A stretch of 24,476 bases of DNA from the IMG/VR virus record IMGVR_UViG_3300030101_001884, positions 1 to 24,476 of that record; one strand, given 5' to 3'. The notes beneath the pieces are model-generated. The model made no database searches. It was not told the origin of the DNA and worked only from the letters and a program-made list of their open reading frames with translations. Made by a program: the position numbers and the translations under genes. Within the stretch, counting starts at the first letter, position 1; the number at the start of each line of letters is the position of its first letter. Source of the DNA: a virus. Shown here piece after piece: positions 16,202 to 21,063 of the stretch.

Positions 16202-16630
16202 ATGGCTGCACAAAAAGGTAGTGCGTTGCTACTTAAAGCAACTCTTAGTGGAAGTTTAACTACATTAGCTGGTTTGCGTTCCACATCAATGACCATTAAT
16301 GGTGAGATGGTTGACATCACAAATAAAGATTCTAGTGTTATGATATCAGGTGGCGCAGATAAAGGAAGAGAATTACTCGAGGGTGGAGGCATAAGAAGTA
16401 TGTCTATGACTGCATCTGGAGTTTTCACAGACTCTGCTCTTGAAAATGATATAAGGATTAGTGCACAAAAAGGACAGATACGAGAATACAAATTAGTATT
16501 TGGTGATGGCGATGATATTACTGGTAATTTTCTAATTACAAGTTATGAAAGAGCTGGTGAGTTTAATGGTGAAGAGACTTATTCGATGACACTTGAGTCT
16601 TCTGGTCAACTTACCCACACATCTGCTTAA
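16202..16630 (+). CDS. Major tail tube protein
   Basis: This 142-residue protein fits the TP901-1-type major tail protein family. It opens MAAQKGSALLLKATLSGSLT, followed by TLAGLRSTSMTINGEMVDIT (21-40), in which the strand and 'N-G-E-x-V-D-I-T' turn are characteristic. ADKGRELLEGGGIRSMSMTA (52-71) is next, with ITSYERAGEFNGEETYSMTL near the C-terminus. These make the stacked hexameric rings of the tail tube. A good Shine-Dalgarno (AGGAGAAAAG) precedes the ATG. Its place between the tail terminator and chaperone/tape-measure genes is the expected order. Confidence 0.92.
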   Translation: MAAQKGSALLLKATLSGSLTTLAGLRSTSMTINGEMVDITNKDSSVMISGGADKGRELLEGGGIRSMSMTASGVFTDSALENDIRISAQKGQIREYKLVFGDGDDITGNFLITSYERAGEFNGEETYSMTLESSGQLTHTSA

Positions 16631-16657: not shown

Positions 16658-16930
16658 ATGGCTTGGAATATAAGCAGTATAACTGTTAATGGTAAATCTA
16701 TGAAAGCTAATGTTAAACACTATGAGTTTAGCATTTCTGTCGAATTACCAAACACTGAAGAACAAATAAAAGTTGGTGATAAAGTTATCGTAAAAGATGA
16801 TGAATATTCTGTTAAATCTGTGAAAGATTTTCACGGAGAACATATGGCATTAGAACTTGAGCAAAAATTAACTTTAAAACCAAAACAAAAGAAAACAAAG
16901 AAAGAAGAGAGCAAAGAGGATGACAAATAA
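16658..16930 (+). CDS. Small tail-module protein of unknown function
   Basis: This 90-residue protein starts with an SH3-like or small-barrel pattern of strands (ISSITVNGKSMKANVKHYEF, 5-24; IKVGDKVIVKDDEYSVKSVK about 37-56) and ends in a Lys/Glu-rich disordered tail (about 73-90). It lies between the tail tube and the tail chaperone genes. AGGAG stands 8 nt upstream of the ATG, and its last 11 bp overlap the next gene. No known family was recognised. A tail assembly role is inferred from position. Confidence 0.6.
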   Translation: MAWNISSITVNGKSMKANVKHYEFSISVELPNTEEQIKVGDKVIVKDDEYSVKSVKDFHGEHMALELEQKLTLKPKQKKTKKEESKEDDK

Positions 16931-17270
16931 TATTGAAGGTACTCTAGAATTTGATTTTGCTGGTAAAACTCGTAAATTCAAACTAGATTTTAATGCATTA
17001 CTTAGTATAGAAACTACATTGCAAAAACCTATCATGAAAGTAGCACAAGAAATTATATCAGGAGATATCGGTATGTTTAATGTTGCTACTATATTACATG
17101 GTGGGCTTACTTGTGCTGGTGGTAAATTTACACTAGAAGCAGTAGGCAATATGGTTCAACAACATGGTTTAGTAAATTCTGTAGCAATAGTATCAGACTT
17201 ATTAACAAAATCTATGGGGTTAGAAGTAAGTGATGACCCAAAAGAGCAAATAGAGAACCAAGAAGAATAG
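16920..17270 (+). CDS. Tail assembly chaperone, short form (GTA gp10-like, lambda G equivalent)
   Basis: This 116-residue protein matches the gene-transfer-agent gp10 type of tail chaperone: TLEFDFAGKTRKFKLDFNAL (8-27), LSIETTL, then a conserved helical region with NVATILHGGLTCAGGKFT and a C-terminal helix near VAIVSDLLTKSMGL. Such proteins coat the tape measure before tube assembly. The start overlaps the upstream gene by 11 bp. Near its end lies the slippery heptamer CCCAAAA (17237-17243), where ribosomes can move to the -1 frame to make a longer form ending at 17467. Without slippage, translation stops at TAG 17268-17270. Confidence 0.85.
   Translation: MTNNIEGTLEFDFAGKTRKFKLDFNALLSIETTLQKPIMKVAQEIISGDIGMFNVATILHGGLTCAGGKFTLEAVGNMVQQHGLVNSVAIVSDLLTKSMGLEVSDDPKEQIENQEE
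17237..17243 (+). promoter_or_regulatory. -1 programmed frameshift slippery site CCCAAAA
   Basis: In the chaperone frame the bases read C-CCA-AAA, an exact X-XXY-YYZ heptamer. Slipping by -1 re-pairs both tRNAs as CCC-AAA. The -1 frame has TGA-TGA at 17231-17236 immediately before the site and then stays open to TAA at 17465-17467. A perfect 6-bp hairpin (TACCAT/ATGGTA, 17277-17295) lies downstream. Its distance from the heptamer (33 nt) is longer than usual for a stimulator, so its role is uncertain. Confidence 0.8.
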
Positions 17271-17467
17271 ATTTTTTACCATTTAAAAGATGGTATGGAA
17301 TAGCTGTAGGTATTTTACATGTACCTCCAAGTGAATTTTGGTGCATGACATTACCTCAATTTAATATAGCTATGGAATTACACAACGAGTTTCATGGTGG
17401 TAATAAAAATGATAAACCACTCACAAAGAGTGAAATGGAAGATTTAATGACGAGGTTTCCTGATTAA
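17243..17467 (+). CDS. Tail assembly chaperone, -1 frameshift extension (lambda GT equivalent)
   Basis: This frame has no suitable start codon of its own: the first ATG would delete its conserved part. It is read as a continuation of the chaperone at 16920. The joined protein would be 182 residues: 108 from frame 0, then 74 beginning RANREPRRIDFLPFKRW. The extension has the small chaperone-2 (rcc01693/TAC-2-like) pattern found beside GTA gp10: RWYGIAVGILHVPPSEFWCM (the W-x-x-x-x-x-x-x-L-x-x-x-P-x-x-F-W line), LPQFNIAMELHNEF, and the terminal KPLTKSEMEDLMTRFPD. In lambda the equivalent GT domain links the chaperone to the tail tube protein. It ends one base into the tape measure start (TAATG). 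Confidence 0.82.
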   Translation, partial: RANREPRRIDFLPFKRWYGIAVGILHVPPSEFWCMTLPQFNIAMELHNEFHGGNKNDKPLTKSEMEDLMTRFPD

Positions 17468-19422
17468 TGGCTAGTATAAATGATTTAATAGTAAGAGTAA
17501 AAGCTGAAACAAGCAATCTTACTAAAGGCATGAATAAAGCTACAAAAGATGTAGAGAACGCCAACAAAAAGATGAAAAAATCTTTTGAGCAAACTGGTAA
17601 AGCTACACAAGGTTTCCAAAAAAGAATGAGTAATACAGCAACAGCAGTTGCTGCACTACAAGGTCCACTTGGTCCATTAGCTGGACGATTGCGTTCTATC
17701 GGAGCATTGTTTGGCTCTGGTGGAATGAAATTAGCACTATTTTTATTAGCATTAACTTCTGCTATTGCAGTATTTAGAAAATTTGTACAAGCAACTGAAG
17801 AAGGCATTCAACAAATGCGTAAACTAGAAGCAATGTTTAAAGCAACTGAGGGTGCTGCAGGATTGAGTGTTGTTCAAATTCAAAGGTTATCAAACACTTT
17901 AGCAAAAAGAACTTTATTCAATATAAAAGATTTTGAAGATGCATCTGCGATAATGATGTCATTCAAAAGTATTACAAAAGACCAATTTGCTTCAGCACTA
18001 GAACTTGCTGCAGATATAGCAACTGTAATGGGCACAGATATGCGTAGCACAGTTATGCAGTTAGGTAAAGCATTAGAAAGTCCAGCAATAGGATTAACAA
18101 TGTTGCGTAGAGCTGGTATAACATTCAGCCAAGACCAAATGCAAGTAATTAAAAATCTAGATTTAACTGGAAGAAAAGCTGAAGCAATAGGAATGGCATT
18201 AGAAATAATGAATAAACAAATAGGTGGAGTTTCTGCAAAACAAGCACAAGATACTCTCTCTGGTAAATTAGATGAGTTAGGAAGAAAAATGACAACTTTC
18301 TCTAGACAATCTTTATTTGGAACTCAAGTAATGGAAGCATTCAAATTTATGGTAGAGTCTACAGCAGATGCAATACCAGAGTTAGACCCATCTGCAATGG
18401 AATTAGAAAAACTTTTGGAAAGAGAATTAGAGTTAATAGAAGATATAGAGGAGGTAAATGAAAGGTTACGTGGAACAGGTATATTTACACCACAGTTTCC
18501 AGAAATTTTACAAAACACTATTGTAAGATTAAACCAACAGCTAAGAATAGTAAAAGATAATATTAAAACTTTAGCATCAAAAGAAGGAATAGGTAAAGCA
18601 ACTTTAAGGATACCATTTATAGAAGGTGAATTATTTGTAAAAACACAAAACGATGCTGATAGACTTATTAGAAAAACTCTACAACTTACAGAAACCTTTG
18701 GTAAACATGGTGCAGAATTAGAAATAGTAAGAATGAAACAACAATTACTTAATAAAGTGCAAAAAGATGGTCTTATTCTTACTATAGAAGAAAGGAAAGC
18801 CGTTGAAGATTTAGTTGAAGCACACAGAAAAAGAATAGAGGCAACTATAGCATTAAAAGATTTTACAGCAGATTTAGATGGAGCAGTTAATAAAGCATTC
18901 GATAGTATGGAAAATGCTATTGTTGGTTTAATACAGGGTACAAAGAGTCTAAAAGATGTTATGAAAACTATAATGCAAGATTTTATAGCTGATTTAACAG
19001 TAGCTATATTGAGAATGTTATTTTTGAAAAGGTTAAGAGATAGTATTTTAGGAAAAGTAGCAGATATTGCAGGAAAAATTTTTAGACCAGAAGTTGTTGG
19101 ACCACCAGCACCAACAGGAATGAGGAATACAGGTGGGACAGTAGGAAGTAGAACACCTTACATGGTAGGTGAACAAGGTCCAGAATTATTTATACCTAAC
19201 ACATCAGGAAGAATACAACCATTAAATAAAGCTGGTGGAAGTATCCAACCACAATCACCAATAGTAGTAGAGCAACACATAAACTTTACAACAGGAGTGC
19301 AAGCAACTGTTCGCTCTGAAGTATTAAATTTATTACCACAAATACAGAACTCAACAATTGCTGCAGTGCAAGAGGCAAGATTGCGTGGTGGAACTTTCTC
19401 TGAAAGTTTTGGAGCATCATAA
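17467..19422 (+). CDS. Tail tape measure protein
   Basis: This 651-residue protein sets tail length and is ejected with the DNA. The N-terminus (LIVRVKAETSNLTKGMNKAT, 7-26) and the coiled coil to about residue 55 are typical. LQGPLGPLAGRLRSIGALFG (64-83) and a hydrophobic membrane-capable segment follow (MKLALFLLALTSAIAVF, 87-103). The middle is helical. The C-terminus has the conserved NTGGTVGSRTPYMVGEQGPE with LFIPNTSGRI, seen in many tape measures. At about 0.15 nm per residue the tail would be near 100 nm, an estimate from the family rule rather than a measurement. It starts at TAATG on the chaperone extension. Confidence 0.93.
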   Translation: MASINDLIVRVKAETSNLTKGMNKATKDVENANKKMKKSFEQTGKATQGFQKRMSNTATAVAALQGPLGPLAGRLRSIGALFGSGGMKLALFLLALTSAIAVFRKFVQATEEGIQQMRKLEAMFKATEGAAGLSVVQIQRLSNTLAKRTLFNIKDFEDASAIMMSFKSITKDQFASALELAADIATVMGTDMRSTVMQLGKALESPAIGLTMLRRAGITFSQDQMQVIKNLDLTGRKAEAIGMALEIMNKQIGGVSAKQAQDTLSGKLDELGRKMTTFSRQSLFGTQVMEAFKFMVESTADAIPELDPSAMELEKLLERELELIEDIEEVNERLRGTGIFTPQFPEILQNTIVRLNQQLRIVKDNIKTLASKEGIGKATLRIPFIEGELFVKTQNDADRLIRKTLQLTETFGKHGAELEIVRMKQQLLNKVQKDGLILTIEERKAVEDLVEAHRKRIEATIALKDFTADLDGAVNKAFDSMENAIVGLIQGTKSLKDVMKTIMQDFIADLTVAILRMLFLKRLRDSILGKVADIAGKIFRPEVVGPPAPTGMRNTGGTVGSRTPYMVGEQGPELFIPNTSGRIQPLNKAGGSIQPQSPIVVEQHINFTTGVQATVRSEVLNLLPQIQNSTIAAVQEARLRGGTFSESFGAS

Positions 19423-20051: not shown

Positions 20052-20617
20052 TGTCTAGGGATTTACATAGTAATTTCACAACAGAACTAGCAACAAATAA
20101 TATAAAACCAATCCTTGCTGCAAAATTTGAATTTGCTACTGTAACAATAAGGTTATGGACAGGTTATGGTGATATAACTATAAATTCAGAAATTTATAAA
20201 GGAATAGGAACACTTGGCTCTTTAGGAAATGTAGAAGAAACTGCACAAACTAAAGCTGTAAGTCAAGATTTTATATTATCAGGAATACCAAGTAAATATA
20301 TACATTTAGCTTTAATAGATAATTATAGTGGTAGAGATGCAACATTATTTTTTGGTTTACTTGATGAGAGCGATGCTGTAATAAGTAATGTTGTAACTTT
20401 ATTTAAAGGGATTATAGATGTTATAACTGTAACAGAGTCTGGGGAAACTTCCACAATAAGATTAAGAGCAGAAAGTAGACTTGTACAGCTAGAAAGAAGC
20501 ATTGAAAGAAGATATACAAGCCAACAACAAAAACTAGATTTTTCTGGAGATTTAGGTTTAGATTTAATAGAAGAATTAATTGACAGAGATATAGTATGGG
20601 AAACTCCAACATCGTAA
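20051..20617 (+). CDS. Tail hub-associated protein (DUF2163-like)
   Basis: The frame is open from a TTG at 20033, but the ATG at 20051, overlapping the previous TAA, gives a 188-residue protein beginning MSRDLHSNFTTELATNNIKP, which fits the family start. Typical elements are LAAKFEFATVTIRLWTGYGD (22-41), a Y-K-G-I/A-G-T/S-L-G turn (residues 49-57 YKGIGTLGS), VEETAQTKAVSQDFILSGIP and a late TIRLRAESRLVQLERSIERR followed by RYTSQQQKLDFSGDLGLD. These proteins lie between the distal tail and J-like genes and are thought to be tail-tip/hub components. The last 22 bp overlap the GNAT gene. Confidence 0.72.
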   Translation: MSRDLHSNFTTELATNNIKPILAAKFEFATVTIRLWTGYGDITINSEIYKGIGTLGSLGNVEETAQTKAVSQDFILSGIPSKYIHLALIDNYSGRDATLFFGLLDESDAVISNVVTLFKGIIDVITVTESGETSTIRLRAESRLVQLERSIERRYTSQQQKLDFSGDLGLDLIEELIDRDIVWETPTS

Positions 20618-21063
20618 TAAGAGAATTTGAATTAAATGATATAGAAACTTTAGTTAAGTTAGGTAAGAAGATGCACTCTGAAGGAGAATATTCTTTTTTA
20701 CCATACTCTAAACAAAAGTGCAGAGATTTAGGTAAGAAAATAAAACTAATAGACAATGCTAACATATGGGTTGCTGAAGTTGATGGGAAAGTAATAGGTA
20801 TGTATATTGCAATAGTAACAGAATACTTTTTTAATTATGAAAAAATAGCTCAAGATTATTTACTTTATATAGACAAAGAATATAGAAAAGATATAAAAAT
20901 ACCTATTAGATTAGTAAAGAAAGCTGAAGCATGGGCTAGAGAACAAGGAGCAAAAGAGTTTTGTCCAGGAAGTAGTATGAACTTTTCTAGTGGTAAATTA
21001 GAAAAATTTTATAATTTTATGAAATTCAAAACAGTCGGTCATTTATTTAAAAAGAGATTATAA
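20596..21063 (+). CDS. GNAT-family N-acetyltransferase inside the tail-tip cluster
   Basis: This 155-residue protein has the GNAT shape. IVIREFELNDIETLVKLGKK (6-25) is the usual first strand-helix, WVAEVDGKVIGMYIA (about 57-71) the central strands, and DYLLYIDKEYRKDIKIPIRL (87-106) occupies the acetyl-CoA loop position, where the R/Q-x-x-G-x-G/A consensus is degenerate. KKAEAWAREQGAKEF follows (108-122). The substrate is unknown. Similar acetyltransferases occur among tail genes of marine phages, where a virion or wall-related target has been suggested but not shown. It overlaps the hub gene by 22 bp and abuts the J-like gene by TAATG, so it is co-translated with tail-tip genes. Confidence 0.7.
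   Translation: MGNSNIVIREFELNDIETLVKLGKKMHSEGEYSFLPYSKQKCRDLGKKIKLIDNANIWVAEVDGKVIGMYIAIVTEYFFNYEKIAQDYLLYIDKEYRKDIKIPIRLVKKAEAWAREQGAKEFCPGSSMNFSSGKLEKFYNFMKFKTVGHLFKKRL

Follow-up and report, generated by a model that had tools for sequence, protein, structure and literature searches.

A lambda G/GT-type −1 frameshift very probably joins two tail chaperone families in a marine phage

Between the tail tube and tape measure genes of a marine phage (IMG/VR record IMGVR_UViG_3300030101_001884; the window analysed here is its positions 1 to 24,476, 24,476 nucleotides in all), a small tail chaperone gene, ORF1, is separated from the tape measure gene by 196 bases (17271–17466), raising the question of whether this gap is coding and, if so, how it is translated. 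Frameshifted tail chaperones are textbook knowledge, and the lambda slip site is G GGA AAG. The −1 frameshift that yields lambda gpG and gpGT, together with its equivalents elsewhere, has been described previously (PMC5009743, citing Xu, Hendrix and Duda 2004). The tape measure is bound by gpG as well as by gpGT, and the tail tube subunit by the T part; long-tailed phages share this frameshift even though their sequences are little alike (PMC5009743). Judging from sequence, the phage studied here very probably makes a short and a long chaperone by a programmed −1 frameshift of the lambda G/GT type, and this is by far the best explanation of the locus. A preliminary description had proposed the same reading, and all of its coordinates hold, including those of ORF1, a TGA pair, a CCCAAAA heptamer, the closing TAA, and the 196-bp gap.

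The tail tube, chaperone and tape measure genes of the window are on the plus strand. The major tail tube protein is encoded at 16202–16630 (PF06199, E 3e-28), and the tape measure protein (651 aa) at 17467–19422, assigned from its position and a match to PF06791 that falls below the cut-off (E 5.6e-5). ORF1 (16920–17270, 116 aa), the putative short form of the tail assembly chaperone, matches PF11836 (Phage_TAC_11, GTA-gp10) with an E-value of 9e-10 and 38.9 bits, over the curated cut-off of 27.8, and PHROG 2115, a tail protein family, with an E-value of 7e-9. A search by sequence for a solved structure of a relative returned none. The region between the tail tube and chaperone genes also holds a 90-aa ORF (16658–16930) with a counterpart in a related locus, L002 (2428–2700), which matched no Pfam family above cut-off and none in PHROGs. 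A GNAT-like acetyltransferase gene (20596–21063; PHROG 1249, E 6e-25) is found within the tail gene block, where it overlaps the end of a tail gene.

The gap is occupied by a second domain in the −1 frame, so that a PF11836/PF09550 pair sits between the tail tube and tape measure genes. This frame is open from 17237 to 17464 and ends with TAA at 17465–17467, giving an extension of 76 aa (17237–17467) that matches PF09550 (Phage_TAC_6, the rcc01693 family) with an E-value of 2.3e-9 and 38 bits, against a curated cut-off of 23.4. Both families named in the preliminary description, GTA gp10 and an rcc01693-like protein, are thus over their curated Pfam cut-offs. The match to NCBIfam TIGR02216 (rcc01693, a hypothetical equivalog) is weaker (E 2.9e-5, 24.2 bits) and does not reach the cut-off of 56.1, and by sequence the −1 frame is homologous to this family and is not the equivalog itself. 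The lambda G or T family was matched by neither frame in the Pfam, PHROGs or NCBIfam scans.

Just 5' of the slip site, the −1 frame is closed by a TGA TGA pair (17231–17236), and its opening coincides exactly with the heptamer CCCAAAA (17237–17243), which reads C CCA AAA in the register of ORF1. No ATG, GTG or TTG precedes the PF09550 domain in this frame, and the first ATG (17344) lies within the domain; the preliminary description was right both on the missing start and on the placing of the heptamer directly after the TGA pair. As computed, a slip on the heptamer joins P107-K108 to R109 and gives a long form of 182 aa, reproducing the K108-R109 junction and the lengths of 116 and 182 aa proposed earlier. 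The closely similar C_CCA_AAG is highly shift-prone in E. coli (PMC5009743). CCCAAAA occurs in the window about as often as expected (4 occurrences against 3.1), and when the overlap of the window is shuffled synonymously, 6.6% of the shuffles contain any in-register heptamer of the form X XXY YYZ, which taken alone is suggestive. The real strength of the case for the slip site is comparative: all of the distinct loci described below have an in-register heptamer.

To collect relatives, IMG/VR was scanned with the tail tube protein and the best 80 of 501 matching stretches were taken; adding two contigs that a search with the second frame had detected, and the window itself, gave 66 distinct two-domain loci, which are kin, so that counts among them are not counts of independent events. 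In this set (best 80 of 501), every one of the 66 loci has TAC_6 as its −1-frame domain and an X XXY YYZ heptamer in register within the overlap. A start ahead of the domain is absent from 65 of the 66; only L033 has one, a TTG. The commonest heptamer is CCCTTTA, with CCCTTTG in nine loci and AAAAAAG or GGGAAAC in the distant ones; CCCAAAA is a minority heptamer, found in three of the 66 (the window, L002 and L068). The identity of the heptamer thus changes across the relatives and its X XXY YYZ form stays. The preliminary description mentions neither CCCTTTA as the usual heptamer of the family nor the conserved downstream stem, described below, of the relatives that carry it. The overlap is about eight times richer in in-register heptamers (69 in 1392 codon positions) than the part of ORF1 upstream of it (43 in 6958). 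Many relatives of the same set (best 80 of 501) have a −1-frame stop 0–15 nt before the heptamer, and among those with CCCTTTA, conservation of the −1 product begins right at the heptamer (PFSxGGE...YPIQ). Fused products would be 165–195 aa among the loci listed. Other routes to relatives were less productive: no phage record was matched by the short form in a tblastn search, a 12-sequence TAC_6 alignment held no stretch conserved enough for a scan of the collection, and in a genome scan for TAC_6 the first query found no match and a hand-written, consensus-like query succeeded.

The same arrangement of two domains, −1 offset and in-register heptamer extends to more distant phages. Caudoviricetes MW202613 (L004) has CCCTTTA in register with a −1 TAC_6 domain, and Rhizobium phage RHph_Y3_1 (L005) has GGGAAAC in the same position, with a weak TAC_11 match (E 9.6e-4); Y3_56_1, nearly identical to RHph_Y3_1, is organized likewise. 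However, the public records differ from this organization: that of MW202613 annotates two genes, the second starting inside the TAC_6 domain, and that of Y3_56_1 leaves the second gene out. Separate or omitted second chaperones, despite an in-register heptamer, are seen at 2142–2704 of L004 and at 2124–2695 of L005/L006.

Downstream stimulatory RNA structures are common, though not obligatory, in G/GT-type frameshifts. A 9-bp stem, beginning 6 nt 3' of the heptamer, is present in three subgroups of the CCCTTTA relatives. At the best register it is paired in 90–100% of cells, and the median for other registers is about 40%. In subgroup A2, the stem pair 15/77 is C-G in eight sequences and U-A in seven, a compensatory change, and pairs 22/70 and 23/69 exchange too. 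RNAalifold run jointly on all CCCTTTA relatives gave little signal, because the 3' arm is in different places among the subgroups, and it was the count per subgroup that revealed the stem. The 5' arm is GGGGGAG or GCGGAGAAC, with the register of the 3' arm differing by subgroup (for example, L076 4098–4199 and L031 3279–3380), and the stem therefore looks as if it had formed anew instead of merely being retained. Across the relatives, the 95 nt that follow the heptamer fold modestly more strongly than synonymous shuffles (mean z −1.45). In the window they do not (z ~0 against synonymous shuffles), and neither this stem nor another downstream stimulator is detectable there. The window does have a Shine-Dalgarno-like stretch, TGGGGTTAG, about 12 nt 5' of the slip site (17216–17224), which forms a duplex of −5.9 kcal/mol with the anti-SD and may weakly qualify as a candidate stimulator.

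Could the two domains be decoded in another way? The sole live rival, which we consider improbable, is that TAC_6 is a separate gene with a non-standard start, such as the ATA at 17267, which shares bases with the ORF1 TAG, and is translated by coupling. Coupled starts do occur in Rhodobacteraceae loci, and in an alignment an ATA overlaps the ORF1 stop in the window and in most of its close clade. However, this codon is not kept even in close relatives, being TTA in L008 and L010, and it is accounted for by the overlapping TAG stop and an Ile codon. In the CCCTTTA relatives, moreover, the ORF1 stop is 52–58 nt downstream, and the −1 protein sequence is already conserved from the heptamer, whose own conservation a non-standard start leaves unexplained. 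Transcriptional slippage would give the same protein as the ribosomal route, yet it is still less probable here: the longest runs at the site are of four A and three C, and the sites reported for transcriptional slippage are runs longer than 7–8 (PMC3711429). An mRNA stem 6 nt downstream, as present in the relatives, is moreover a feature that typically goes with ribosomal slippage. That a single fused ORF was split by gene decay or by an error in assembly or sequencing has nothing in its favour beyond the broken frame, and its probability is negligible: the same −1 break recurs in 66 distinct loci (best 80 of 501 set), with differing heptamers and with both frames conserved, and the relatives refute it.

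The lambda G/GT-type reading rests on observed features: the gene order, the two protein families and their frames, the slip site, the lack of a start for the second frame, and conservation among relatives. In the set of 66 loci (best 80 of 501), the −1 offset and heptamer are universal and the startless second frame nearly so (65/66), in support of the preliminary description on this point. As in lambda G/GT, the pair lies between the tail tube and the tape measure, with overlapping frames, a −1 offset, a heptamer, and a second frame lacking a start; the slip site differs from that of lambda, being C CCA AAA in the window or C CCT TTA in relatives. What we infer is that ribosomes slip here, how often they do so, and what each product does. 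A minority of the ribosomes translating the PF11836 gene would step back one base at C CCA AAA, bypass the TAG of ORF1, and continue into the PF09550 domain, producing the 182-aa fusion beside an abundant 116-aa form. By analogy with lambda gpG and gpGT, the short form may coat the tape measure protein and the extra domain of the fusion may recruit tail tube subunits, in which case the rate of slipping would set the ratio of short to long form.

On one hand, these two families are very probably united by the frameshift in the window and in its phage relatives, in line with what the preliminary description had proposed for the window. On the other hand, this does not extend to Rhodobacteraceae, in which we examined one family sample built around an uncultured Roseobacter genome and taken as Rhodobacteraceae (29 loci, L140–L168). 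All 29 have an ATG or GTG of their own ahead of the TAC_6 domain, and its frame offset varies between −1, +1 and, once, in frame; across the 29 junctions, no slip heptamer was found except one GGGGGGC (L147). The preliminary description had named independent starts without a slip site in relatives as the pattern that would count against it, and this pattern is absent from the phage relatives and belongs to the Rhodobacteraceae loci. Since the domain has its own start there, the description as separate chaperone genes is correct for Rhodobacteraceae, the frameshift is lineage-specific, and fusion is not essential to the two families. In L159, one open frame holds both TAC_11 and TAC_6, and an ATG within it comes immediately ahead of TAC_6; this is either a natural fusion or an assembly error.

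In other alphaproteobacterial lineages, a frameshift is likely. A class-wide sample together with named loci gave 19 rows in which TAC_6 is offset by −1, an X XXY YYZ heptamer is present, and the domain has no start ahead of it, although a few loci are included twice and the distinct loci are slightly fewer. Several non-Rhodobacteraceae alphaproteobacterial loci with GTA-like short tape measures keep the slip site CCCTTTC. The next tape measure-sized ORFs in these bacterial loci are mostly ~180–250 aa, versus 651 aa in the window, and because such short ORFs are expected for the short tails of GTAs, these loci are probably GTA clusters. Among loci whose −1 frame has P-F at the domain edge, this pair is coded CCC TTT in 10 of the 11 with ORF1 still open there, versus 2 of the 6 with ORF1 already stopped (one-sided Fisher ~0.03); frameshift-type loci thus retain C CCT TTC as long as ORF1 is being read across it. 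It is possible, though in our judgment somewhat short of probable, that the chaperones of alphaproteobacterial phages and some GTA-like loci were ancestrally one frameshifted gene, in which Rhodobacteraceae GTAs later swapped the slip site for an independent coupled start.

In RcGTA, g10 (pfam11836) is described as tail chaperone 1 and g10.5 as tail chaperone 2, with frameshifting unmentioned (PMC11409702). RcGTA g10 and ORF1 of the window share a domain and the same order before the tape measure, and from its position and the NCBIfam name rcc01693, g10.5 is probably the PF09550 domain. The RcGTA type, as seen in the sampled Rhodobacteraceae loci, differs from the window in that the second domain is self-started and no slip site is conserved at the junction. 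A paper on R. capsulatus phages calls frameshifting usual for tail assembly chaperones (PMC8601537). Our search of the open literature, with subscription journals outside its range, found no paper that links PF11836 and PF09550 by a frameshift, and none under the names PF11836, PF09550 or rcc01693. The mechanism is known from lambda; here it would join two families that have been described for GTAs as separate genes.

These findings correct a systematic gap in annotation, in which the second domain has been missed or wrongly started in public phage records and the two families have been named as separate genes. The presence of related loci with and without the frameshift also offers a contrast of frameshifted and separately started chaperones, and the relation of the short-to-long ratio to tail length, in phages versus GTAs, becomes testable in tractable alphaproteobacteria.
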